From contig CALEHW010000059.1 in NCBI GenBank assembly GCA_937877715.1, positions 1 through 64,000 of the forward strand: DNA of 64,000 nucleotides, read 5' to 3'. Below are positions 22,859-30,481 of this stretch, in pieces (position 1 is the first letter of the stretch; each line of letters opens with the position of its first letter). A program made the position numbers and the translations under genes. The stretch is from an uncultured Methylophaga sp. Lineage in GTDB: Bacteria > Pseudomonadota > Gammaproteobacteria > GCF-002020875. Below the pieces are notes generated by a model. It did not search any database and had not been told where the DNA came from. It saw only the letters and a list, made by a program, of their open reading frames with translations.

Positions 22859-24007
22859 CTAATTGCGATCAAGAAAATCATCTACCTTCCAGACCAGCTC
22901 AATTGATGGCAGAATCTGGCTCATTACACGGTTCCAGGATACGACACCTGCTGGTGCCACAAAGACCACATCATGTGGCCGCATCTGGAACTGGTCTGCA
23001 AGCACCATTGATGCTGCCGACTTGCCATTAAAGCGATATACGGCCGGCTTGCTCGCAACAGTTGTCTCACCCTGCATTGGACGGGCTCCACGAATAATAT
23101 AGATACGCTCCGGATCGGAGGTTGCATTGTTCAGCCCTCCGGCATCACCCAGCGCCTCAGCAAGGGTCATCCCGGCATGGTGGATCAGCTGTGTCTTGAC
23201 ACTGGAGACCTCACCCAAGACCCACACCTTGTTGATCTGGTTATCCTGAAAATGGACGGTATCACCATCCTGAAGAAGTACATTCTGTGACAAATCCCCC
23301 TCACCCAGAAGAGCCTGCAAGTCAATCTGCTGCACATCTCCATCTCTTGTCCAGAGGATATGGCGCACATCAGCCGACACCCCCTTGACCCCTCCTGCCA
23401 ATGTGGTGGCATCCAGGACAGTTAATGGCACATCAGTTACCGGATAGACACCAGGACGTATCACCTCTCCTGTAATATATACCTTCTGACTACGGAACTC
23501 GGCAACCTGTACATTCACCTGTGGGTCATTGATATATCTCCCCAGCTCCCTGGTCAATGTTGACCTTACCTCCTCAATGGTCTTTCCCGCCACACCAAGA
23601 ACACCCACATATGGGAAGAAGATGGTGCCATCACTGCGCACAATAAGGCCGCTCGCTTTCCCCTTTGCGCTCTTTAGCCCGGAGGTTGTGGTGAGCTCAG
23701 GATGCTCCCACACCATTACTCCCAGAATATCTCGTGGCCCAACTCTGTAGGTGTAGTCATCCATCTGGACAGAGAGGTTGTTGACCCTCATCCTGCTTGA
23801 CAGCTTCTGTAGCTGATCCCGATTCATCTGTGCTATCAGTGCCGGAGTAATAGGCTCAACATTAACCTCAGGCTCCTTCTCTTTGGTGCTAAAAACACCT
23901 CTCAGATGACTTTTCTCATCCATCTGCATCCCCGGTGACATGGCACAACCAGATAGTGCCCCAGCCAATAGAATGACCGCTGTTGTTGCTAGTTTGTTAC
24001 TCATCAT
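22859..24007 (-). CDS. wza: Wza-type outer-membrane polysaccharide export lipoprotein
   Basis: This 382-residue export channel protein has a lipoprotein signal (lipobox LSGC, Cys21), a Poly_export domain from YRVGPRDILGVMVWEHPEL, and two SLBB-like segments (KVYITGEVIRPGVYPV and KVWVLGEVSSVKTQ), the ring domains of Wza. The C-terminal helix crosses the outer membrane in E. coli Wza and a comparable amphipathic tail is present. It lies 53 bp downstream of the outer-membrane protein gene and 44 bp upstream of wzc. Confidence 0.93.
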   Translation of the reverse strand: MMSNKLATTAVILLAGALSGCAMSPGMQMDEKSHLRGVFSTKEKEPEVNVEPITPALIAQMNRDQLQKLSSRMRVNNLSVQMDDYTYRVGPRDILGVMVWEHPELTTTSGLKSAKGKASGLIVRSDGTIFFPYVGVLGVAGKTIEEVRSTLTRELGRYINDPQVNVQVAEFRSQKVYITGEVIRPGVYPVTDVPLTVLDATTLAGGVKGVSADVRHILWTRDGDVQQIDLQALLGEGDLSQNVLLQDGDTVHFQDNQINKVWVLGEVSSVKTQLIHHAGMTLAEALGDAGGLNNATSDPERIYIIRGARPMQGETTVASKPAVYRFNGKSAASMVLADQFQMRPHDVVFVAPAGVVSWNRVMSQILPSIELVWKVDDFLDRN

Positions 24008-24060: not shown

Positions 24061-25677
24061 CTACCAGGTTAACCCTAACTGAAGCAGTGTAGCATCAAAT
24101 GTTCCGCCATCCATCCCCTGCATGACACCTATATCTGCCGTAGCATCAAGCTTATTGGTGAGTGGCAACTCTGCCCCCAGCGACCACTGGTGAATCAGCC
24201 CCTCACCCACATCCATACCTCCACCACCACCGACACCAGCCTCATACCTCATCAGTAGTGGCCAACCGAATGGTTGAATCTCAACTCCAAACAACCCCTC
24301 TGCATATGCACCAACCCCACCACCCCATGCACCATAGGCACTACCAGAAATGGCTGTCCATTCATTAACCTGCTTGCTCAGGACAATGCCCAGAAGGTGA
24401 ATGCTGTCAGCATACTCTCCTCCGCTCTTTGTAAGGGCGCTACTGGTTGGGAAGTAGGTCTTGTGACGCAAGGAATAATCTGTCTCTGACTCCCTCACCT
24501 CCCAGCTAATCGCCACCTCAGCTGTTGTTGATGAGAAGTTGCCATTGGGTGCGTAGGTCTTGCCAACCATGGATTTGAGTGACCAGCGCTCACCAAGTTC
24601 AAGCTCCAGCCCAACCATTGGCTGAATAATCAGTCCACCGCCAGTATCGATACCACCACCACCTGCCATCCCGGCAGAGATTTTGGCATCCCAGTTCAGC
24701 AGTCCTGGAATTAACGACCTGTTGACTCCAATACCGCCCAGTACCTTGGCATACCCATCTGTTCCCCCCTGCCCCGCCCCATAGACCTCAAAGGTGCGAT
24801 AGAGAGAGCTGCTAATTGCATGATAGTGTTGAAAACCGACAAGGGTGACATCCTCTGTCAAACTACTGCCACTCCTCTTTTTGGCGTCACTATCAGGAGA
24901 GTAGACAGCGATAACCGGGGTAATCTTTGTTACCCCTGCACCTCTGTAATCTGATATCCCGGGTATCCCAAGGGAGTTCCCTGCAAGATTATGGGTTGGC
25001 AGGGAGAGCCCTGCTGTCAGGTGGGTATCACTCTCATACGCTGTATTGGAGGTGTTTGGAAAGGCTATTCTGGCAACCCCAAAACGGAGGGTAAATGGGC
25101 TCAACTCTTTCTCCACCATCAGATGAGAGCGCAACATCAGGCCACCACCAGGAAATGCTCCAGCACCACCGCCACCACCAGCGAAGAGACCAGCATCAAT
25201 TGCCAAATCCTCTGCCAGCAGTGGAACATCCAGATAGTGGTGCCACCCCAGTGTTGCACCACCAACAAAGAAACCACCGTAATCCCCTGTCATCGCACCA
25301 TATCCACCAACCCCCAGGTAGAGATCAGGCAGCAGGTCAAATGGTTTGATATCGTAATGTATCCCCACCGTCCCCATATTTTCGGTTGAGGAGACCGGGA
25401 TATCATCAAAAGAGAAGCGGTAACGGGCAGAGTCCAACTCCGTCTCCTCTGTTTTTGTTAACTCCCTCTCTACAACTGGTGCAGCTACCGATACTGGAGC
25501 TACAGATCTATAACTCGTTTCTACAGCTTTTGTCTCAACAACCGGCAGTGTCTCTGATGATTCACCACTGCATATCCAGCCACCATCACTACCCACAACA
25601 CAGCTATATGGCACCGCTGCAGCAACATCAATCGCAAGCAGAATGAGTGGTAGTGAGGTTAGAAAACGGTGAGCCAT
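24061..25677 (-). CDS. Outer-membrane beta-barrel protein with three glycine-rich modules
   Basis: This 538-residue secreted protein has a signal peptide (about 1-21) and then Cys26-x9-Cys36 around GGW, the same N-terminal pattern as LptD in this window. The rest is beta-rich with aromatic strand ends and stops at LLQLGLTW, an outer-membrane-type C-terminal residue pattern. Three modules can be aligned by eye, each with a YGA-GG segment, an AG-GGGG turn followed by GGGL or EGL, and a closing strand pair. I do not recognise the family. Its place between wzb and wza suggests a part in polysaccharide passage or modification at the outer membrane (inference). Confidence 0.75.
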   Translation of the reverse strand: MAHRFLTSLPLILLAIDVAAAVPYSCVVGSDGGWICSGESSETLPVVETKAVETSYRSVAPVSVAAPVVERELTKTEETELDSARYRFSFDDIPVSSTENMGTVGIHYDIKPFDLLPDLYLGVGGYGAMTGDYGGFFVGGATLGWHHYLDVPLLAEDLAIDAGLFAGGGGGAGAFPGGGLMLRSHLMVEKELSPFTLRFGVARIAFPNTSNTAYESDTHLTAGLSLPTHNLAGNSLGIPGISDYRGAGVTKITPVIAVYSPDSDAKKRSGSSLTEDVTLVGFQHYHAISSSLYRTFEVYGAGQGGTDGYAKVLGGIGVNRSLIPGLLNWDAKISAGMAGGGGIDTGGGLIIQPMVGLELELGERWSLKSMVGKTYAPNGNFSSTTAEVAISWEVRESETDYSLRHKTYFPTSSALTKSGGEYADSIHLLGIVLSKQVNEWTAISGSAYGAWGGGVGAYAEGLFGVEIQPFGWPLLMRYEAGVGGGGGMDVGEGLIHQWSLGAELPLTNKLDATADIGVMQGMDGGTFDATLLQLGLTW

Positions 25678-28417: not shown

Positions 28418-29017
28418 CTACTGTGGATAGGTCAACTCAACCCGTCGATTCTGGGCCCAGAAGAGCTCCTCCGCTCCTGTCTCCAGCGGATTCTCTTCCC
28501 CATAGCTGATGATCTCGATCTGTCCGGAGTTGACCCCTTCGGCAATCAGCAGATCACTCATGGTCTGTGCCCTGCGCTCACCCAGTGACAGATTGTACTC
28601 ACGGGATCCGCGCTCATCCGCATGCCCCTCCAGACGTACAATCATTACAGGATTGTTGATTAGATAGGCTGCATGAGCCTGAATTACCGAGAGATCTTCC
28701 GCACTTACAGCGCTGCTGTCATAGTCAAAGAAGAAGAGACGCTGGGCAGGTGCCGTCAGAGTGGGAACCAGTGACTCAACAACCTGCTCTACCTCTTGAA
28801 TCTCTATGGACTGCTGTTCCACAATCCCACCCTCTACAGTAACTGGATAATCTGCACTACTTGCGCTAACAGGGTCATACTGGTCAATCTCAACCACCTC
28901 CACAATGGTTACCTCTCCATCCGTTGATGAATCGAAAGACCCATTCAATGGATTATCGAGGGTACCACACCCTGTCAGAGAGAGCCCCAGGAATATGACT
29001 AACCAGAGAGCTCTCAT
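28418..29017 (-). CDS. pal: Peptidoglycan-associated lipoprotein Pal
   Basis: Pal anchors the outer membrane to peptidoglycan within Tol-Pal. It is 199 residues with lipobox LTGC (Cys17), a long acidic linker (about 20-85), and an OmpA-like domain opening at RLFFFDYDSSAVS with the diaminopimelate-binding segment LEGHADERGSREYNLSLGERRA. It is about 25 residues longer than E. coli Pal (173), all in the linker. Its ATG overlaps the stop of the small lipoprotein gene upstream. Confidence 0.95.
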   Translation of the reverse strand: MRALWLVIFLGLSLTGCGTLDNPLNGSFDSSTDGEVTIVEVVEIDQYDPVSASSADYPVTVEGGIVEQQSIEIQEVEQVVESLVPTLTAPAQRLFFFDYDSSAVSAEDLSVIQAHAAYLINNPVMIVRLEGHADERGSREYNLSLGERRAQTMSDLLIAEGVNSGQIEIISYGEENPLETGAEELFWAQNRRVELTYPQ

Positions 29018-29148
29018 TTCTTGGCCTCTCCAGCTGCCTCACTTTCTGTTGGAATCAAGACATCAGAGACATCATCGATAAACTCATTAATTGTGCTACA
29101 TCCACCCAAAAACAGCCCCATCAACAAAATAACAGCAAAACGTCTCAT
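29014..29148 (-). CDS. Small 44-residue lipoprotein between tolB and pal
   Basis: This short ORF encodes 44 residues: a basic start (MRRF), a hydrophobic segment and the lipobox LGGC (Cys17), then a short acidic tail (STINEFIDDVSDVLIPTESE). A strong Shine-Dalgarno, aggagat, lies 6 nt before the ATG. Its stop overlaps the pal start by 4 bp (ATGA), so it is translationally coupled to pal. The mature peptide would have only about 28 residues. I do not recognise it. The position suggests a Tol-Pal accessory or a translational leader for pal. Confidence 0.8.
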   Translation of the reverse strand: MRRFAVILLMGLFLGGCSTINEFIDDVSDVLIPTESEAAGEAKK

Positions 29149-29206
29149 ATTTCTATCTCCTGTTTACCAATTTCCTTTTACCAATATGCCTGCACAACTC
29201 TGTAAC

Positions 29207-30481
29207 TCAATGCACAAATGGAGACCATGCCGGCTCTCTTACATCTTTCCCCCTCAGACTAAGCTGCTGTACGCTACCCCCGCCTACTGAGGCAATCTCC
29301 AGAACACCACGCCCCCCTATCTGGGTAGCATACACGATCATCTGCCCGTTTGGGGCGAAACTGGGGGACTCATCCTGGTGATTATCTGTCAGTAGCCGCA
29401 CTACTCCACTCTCTCTATCCATCATCGCAATCCGGTAGCGCCCCCCCTCACCATTGAGCATGGCAAGCTGACTGCCATCAGCAGACCAGTCCGGGCTAGT
29501 GTTGTAACGCCCCTTGAAGGTGACACGCTGCGCCTTGCCACCGGCAATATTGAGCTGATAGATCTGCGGGCGACCGCTACGGTCAGAGAGAAAGGCGATA
29601 CTCTCCCCATCCGGGGACCAGACCGGTTCTGTATCTGCCCCACGATTCCGGGTCACTCTGGTGATTTTTCTGGTTTTCAGCTCAAATAGATAGATTTCGG
29701 AATTCCCATCCCGAGAGAGAGAGAGAGCAAGCCGTTTTCCATCCGGGGACCAGGCAGGGGCACTGTTCTTCCCCTTGAAGCTGGCCACCAGTGACCGCTT
29801 CCCACTGTAGACCCCCTGCACCCAGACCTCCGAGCGGCCATTCTCAAACGACACATAGGCCAGCTGTCTCCCATCCGGGGACCAGCTTGGGGAGAGCAGC
29901 GGGGCAGATGAGGTGAGTAGCACCTGTACATTCTCCCCATCCACATCTGCCAGTTCGAGGGTATAGGTTCGTCTGCCGTTTTCAGCTCTCTCCAACGAGA
30001 TATAGGTGATGTGGGTACTGAAAGCACCACGAACCCCTGTCAATTTCCTGTAGATCAGATCACTGACAGCGTGGGCAGTTCGACGAATACTCTTGCTGCT
30101 GTTATCAGCAATGGGAAAACGGTAGTGAGCCAGCAGCTTCTTGCGGTAGACATCAATTAGCTGCACTTCGAGTTGCTCTCTGTCGTCACTGCCGGCAACT
30201 ATCCTGCCAACCACCAGGGTGGGGATTTCAAGCAGGCGCCAGTCGGTGAAGTTGACCTCATCCAGACTGGATGGCCGGGAGATCATCTGCTCCTCTGCCA
30301 GCGGGGCAAATTCACCGCTCAGCCTGAGGTCGCTGGAGACGATAGTGGAACCGGGAAACGGTGCCACCGCAATCGGCAGTGCCGACTCACTGCCCCGGGT
30401 GATTACAATCTCCAGTGCACAGACCGAGCTTGAGAGCAGGGCCAAGCAGCCAACCCAGAGGAGCAGTAAAATATTTTTCAC
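29207..30481 (-). CDS. tolB: Tol-Pal periplasmic protein TolB
   Basis: This 424-residue periplasmic protein has a signal peptide (about 1-22), an N-terminal alpha/beta domain (about 25-160) and a six-bladed beta-propeller with repeated [14 protein letters not shown]-type blade motifs (at least five copies of the WSPDG form). TolB switches Pal between peptidoglycan-bound and free states. It lies 6 bp downstream of tolA. The length is normal (E. coli 430). Confidence 0.95.

Follow-up and report, generated by a model that had tools for sequence, protein, structure and literature searches.

A small lipoprotein-like ORF overlapping pal at the tolB-pal junction of an uncultured Methylophaga sp., and its likeness to the start of Pal

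Entericidins are small outer-membrane lipoproteins, tiny and equipped with a lipobox. LptM, as presented in the consulted parts of PMC10567701, is likewise a tiny lipoprotein with a lipobox. The ORF analysed here shares these traits but, in contrast to LptM and the entericidins, it matches no family and occurs in one genome only. A second group of related systems comprises short upstream ORFs coupled to the following gene. The consulted excerpts of PMC6728339 treat ATGA overlaps and short upstream ORFs which deliver ribosomes, and those of the review PMC12548453 describe coupling through RNA unfolding or re-initiation, with short upstream ORFs again delivering the ribosomes. Our locus has the ATGA, the short ORF, a downstream Shine-Dalgarno sequence internal to it and some occlusion of the ribosome binding site in common with what these excerpts report; it differs in that the product of the ORF has an entire lipoprotein signal, one related to pal, and in that the coupling is putative. 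Lastly, the signal peptide, the lipobox and the first mature residues of the ORF resemble those of Pal (TIGR02802) from congeners, whereas the ORF lacks the OmpA-like peptidoglycan-binding domain and has 44 residues against 199. In kind, it belongs to a known sort of small, lineage-specific ORF: a probable partial gene-start copy in a coupling position.

The tol-pal genes follow the order tolQ, tolR, tolA, tolB, pal, called highly conserved in the consulted sections of the review PMC7391070. This order agrees with the remark of the initial annotation that E. coli has no gene at the site. The parts consulted of PMC12204202 also present the order as conserved in Proteobacteria and name no gene between tolB and pal, and no description of such a gene was found in the titles and abstract openings returned by searches of open-access literature.

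The tolB-pal junction and evidence for coding

The window, i.e. the whole 64,000-nt stretch of DNA that was analysed, carries the following features at this junction:

29207 to 30481, minus strand: tolB, 424 aa
29149 to 29206, minus strand: gap from the tolB stop to the ORF, 58 nt
29157 to 29161, minus strand: Shine-Dalgarno sequence AGGAG of the ORF, 8 nt upstream of its ATG, read from the sequence
29014 to 29148, minus strand: the ORF, 44 codons, with signal peptide, lipobox LGGC and likeness to the Pal N-terminus
29025 to 29031, minus strand: Shine-Dalgarno sequence GGAGAGG of pal, 7 nt upstream of its ATG, inside the final ORF codons
29014 to 29017, minus strand: ATGA overlap, formed by the ORF stop TGA (29016-29014) and the pal start ATG (29017-29015)
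29001 to 29035, minus strand: predicted hairpin with arms 29035-29026 and 29010-29001, the pal Shine-Dalgarno in the stem and the AUG in the loop
28418 to 29017, minus strand: pal, 199 aa, with its own signal peptide and an OmpA domain (PF00691)

Read along the minus strand, tolB is followed by the 58-nt gap, then by the ORF and pal. Both neighbours are recognised above cut-off by curated models, TolB by TIGR02800 and Pal by TIGR02802. A search of the gap on its minus strand found neither promoter-like nor terminator-like sites. No separate pal promoter of simple type was found on that strand and no Rfam family at the ORF site.

The 44-residue translation is MRRFAVILLMGLFLGGCSTINEFIDDVSDVLIPTESEAAGEAKK. 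It follows the lipoprotein pattern, judged by motif and hydropathy: a positively charged start, a hydrophobic core (score 3.1) and L-x-G-C. The predicted mature lipopeptide has 28 residues and begins C-S-T-I-N, its start reading GCSTINEFIDDVSD. Serine at position +2 of a lipoprotein follows the rule for outer-membrane sorting, and the ORF has serine there; its product, if lipidated, would be expected in the outer membrane. A 44-residue lipoprotein gene with a strong Shine-Dalgarno sequence and an ATGA overlap with pal, as initially annotated, is present in the sequence.

Codon statistics support coding by the ORF. Codon frequencies were taken from 153 long ORFs in 256 kb of the same genome, a mechanical pick in which false ORFs are possible. 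The in-frame log-odds of the ORF is 10.1, a value reached by none of 2000 stop-free shuffles (-2.3 +/- 3.7), and the five other frames of the region score between -3.7 and 0.9. Synonymous codon choice also beats random (p 0.0015), and third-position G+C is lower than the training mean (0.39 vs 0.53). Small ORFs with signal and lipobox proved to be few across these 256 kb. Together with the uniqueness of the ORF among the 124 junctions described below, the codon scores led us to reject a chance ORF, and the frame is probably translated.

Family searches returned no significant relationship. Pfam gave no family at E<=1 and showed no OmpA-like C-terminal domain in the ORF, PF00691 being present in the adjacent Pal. 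The best NCBIfam match, RcsF, was sub-threshold (E 0.14; 12.3 bits against a cut-off of 140), the best PHROGs match (E 0.057) lay far below significance, and a plasmid search produced one match, not meaningful at E 1. These results bear on the proposal that the ORF encodes a functional small lipoprotein, either a competitor or helper in Pal lipidation and sorting or an LptM-like envelope factor. The complete signal peptide with lipobox and the codon use, which is like that of real genes, speak for it; the missing family matches, a mature part too short for any known domain and the absence of the ORF from congeners (next section) speak against it, and we regard it as improbable.

Distribution among relatives

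We examined 127 tolB-pal regions: 100 chosen by hand from listed genomes and 27 loci which include the genome itself and four congeners. A tolB match was seen in 171 genomes, which were sampled in part. Pal lies downstream of tolB in 124 of the regions, the exceptions being G099 (contig end), G181 and G162. Loci L013, L022 and L023, in which tolB was not found, and L031 were left out of the junction set, as was congener G003, whose assembly breaks at the junction.

A lipoprotein-like ORF in the spacer is present in one of these 124 gammaproteobacterial junctions, that of the genome itself. The nearest approach, a 20-codon string in the spacer of L008, is borderline and passes the filter at its lowest hydrophobic score. 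All four readable congeners (G001, G002, G004 and G005) lack the ORF, with spacers of 35, 38, 10 and 57 nt, respectively. The initial annotation had suggested a new Tol-Pal accessory peptide, to be sought in the spacers of related genomes. That search leaves the suggestion unsupported, since it gave the very outcome that the initial annotation had named as refuting, loss in close relatives: we reject a conserved accessory gene, and a new conserved Tol-Pal subunit is not supported. A contig scan with TolB led to one distant Prevotellaceae locus, which was uninformative.

The median spacer is 42.5 nt, and six of the 124, our genome included, measure at least 138 nt. The remaining long spacers hold ORFs without a lipobox or no ORF of at least 25 codons. 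Two of the spacers, L120 (G144) and L123 (G167), extend to 340 and 356 nt and carry ORFs of 97-115 codons without a lipobox.

Likeness to Pal and origin of the ORF

The relatives of the ORF point to pal. Within the genus, its best non-self protein match is the start of Pal from congener G004 (E 8e-5; 54% over 26 residues), and among 274 genomes of the class this start is the sole non-self match at E<=5e-4; a sample of 398 genomes of the phylum gave no non-self match. A DNA search with flanks in six genomes also found the G004 pal start as best non-self match (75% over 53 nt, E 0.0012). In the signal segment, 38 of 51 nt are identical to G004 pal, a DNA likeness greater than the shared amino acids would account for (codon model, p 0.0006-0.0052). 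The resemblance covers the first ~26 codons.

Profiles agree with the pairwise searches. A profile of five Pal N-termini of the genus, own Pal included, retrieves from the genome pal (1.9e-25), then the ORF (1.3e-5), the third hit being at 0.0021. When both own Pal and the ORF are excluded, the profile of the four congeners places the ORF at the top of 131 N-termini with 23.2 bits, against 17.1 for the best other and 15.0 for the start of own Pal. In both profiles the ORF is placed with the genus-type Pal N-terminus, comprising signal, lipobox and mature start.

In view of these protein, DNA and profile matches to Pal starts, we interpret the ORF as a truncated relative of the pal 5′ end. The full reading, in which it arose most simply by partial tandem duplication, is probably translated and acts mainly in cis on pal, we consider slightly more probable than its negation. 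The duplication would have occurred in this lineage and copied the part of pal that encodes the signal peptide, the lipobox and ~10 residues of the mature start, after which ORF and pal would have diverged. Translation of the ORF would then yield a 28-residue lipopeptide devoid of the OmpA domain. The gene model of the initial annotation holds, its accessory-peptide reading is not supported, and a likely origin from the Pal start had been missed. More generally, such an event would offer a route for the birth of small lipoprotein genes, in which a modular 5′ end (signal and lipobox) is copied ahead of its gene and left coupled to it. It also advises caution, as a tiny lipoprotein ORF that adjoins a lipoprotein gene may have been copied from it.

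Several observations speak against a simple duplication. The ORF is not clearly close to the neighbouring pal, since of the 51 nt of the signal segment 29 are identical and 22 differ; no direct repeat links the starts of the two genes, and a duplicated ribosome site or spacer left no trace (score 7.0, matched by 36 of 49 other gene starts). A rival reading makes the ORF the decaying remnant of such a partial duplication of pal, open by chance, its peptide and coupling being immaterial. The restriction to a single genome fits such a relic. In neutral-decay runs, moreover, an intact frame with lipobox is left in 2-16% of cases when 0.2 substitutions per site have accumulated and in 13-39% at 0.1, the spread depending on the indel rate. 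The ATGA is no obstacle either: pal begins ATGAGA, where a neighbouring frame must stop, so that the overlap arises whenever an adjacent frame enters pal and constitutes weak evidence of selection. Against this stands what has been retained, namely the start, a strong Shine-Dalgarno sequence, the lipobox, an open frame and codon choice of its own genome (p 0.0015), all kept despite the 22 differences from own pal. The decay runs lean to retention without proving it, because the event could be of any age. We hold a relic to be unlikely, if still a serious contender.

A different history is suggested by the composition of G004 Pal. Its signal segment is nearer the ORF than own pal (38 against 28 of 51 nt), whereas its first mature codons are nearer own pal (22 of 30 nt, against 16 for the ORF). 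Together with the 10-nt tolB-pal gap of G004, this could reflect an ancestral two-gene state in which a small lipoprotein gene preceded pal and its start was fused to the pal body in G004-like congeners. Such a history requires loss in every other congener, and two lipoprotein genes occur in none of the 119 junctions outside the genus; it appears quite improbable.

One stretch of the ORF's mature start (CSTINxxxDxVSD) is nearer a BamB-like protein of the same genome, GCSTINGWVDGVSD (E 0.005), than Pal. The protein in question, L067 from 9917 (G000:C24), is a lipoprotein of ~385 aa which begins with this sequence and which we take to be BamB-like from its start and size. As GCST starts recur among the lipoprotein starts compared, the likeness to Pal might be convergence, the ORF stemming from elsewhere, e.g. 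from the bamB start with which it has GCSTIN..D.VSD in common. However, upstream of the cysteine codon the ORF is matched by the bamB-like gene in 14 of 48 nt and by G004 pal in 32 of 45, which disfavours bamB as source, and the best match by protein, DNA and profile is the pal locus itself. Convergence is accordingly the least credible of the origins considered and would be highly surprising.

Coupling to pal and RNA structure

For a truncated pal relative in this position, feeding ribosomes to pal is the likeliest use. Ribosomes terminating at the ORF TGA would sit on the pal ATG, and they could open, or re-use, the partly folded ribosome site of pal. The initial annotation had proposed, as one option, a coupling device that sets the Pal level; this is the part of its functional reading that the ATGA overlap favours, with weak structural support from the modelled folds. 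A separate peptide function is not supported. If the coupling is real, it may represent a lineage-specific upkeep of Pal dosage after a longer spacer had parted pal from tolB.

The calculated opening energy of the ribosome site is 9.3 kcal/mol for pal, the fourth highest of 124 (median 5.3), and 4.1 for the ORF start. Comparable occlusion is seen in three of ten gene starts of the window, pal probably being among the three. The 48-nt stretch with the modest pal hairpin folds better than most shuffles (z -1.61), being equalled by 14 of 200; stretches of 80 nt (z 0.50) and 237 nt (z 1.10) fold no better than shuffles, and a strong regulatory RNA structure was not found. Coupling is also opposed by the fact that pal keeps its own Shine-Dalgarno sequence.

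The pal start of G004, after its 10-nt spacer, is the second most closed of the 124 (12.2 kcal/mol). The pal starts of the three other readable congeners are open. The modelled closure in G004 suggests that pal may be coupled to tolB there. A closed start would fit coupling to tolB in G004 and to the ORF here, but the fit is only a hint, because occlusion does not track the gap over the 124 junctions (rho 0.03, p 0.75).

Two further modes of action were considered. The ORF product might serve as a cis-acting decoy for Pal, a duplicate of its head made with every synthesis of Pal and occupying lipoprotein maturation and the Lol route. A truncated paralogue would in that case limit and dose Pal and set its level; we regard this as very improbable. 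A frameshift fusion of ORF and Pal was set aside, because its product would contain a second signal peptide internally.

Elsewhere in the window, a 382-aa lipoprotein-like ORF (minus strand, start at 24007) lies directly downstream of a 538-aa ORF (24061-25677, minus strand), which is glycine-rich and has a signal-like start.
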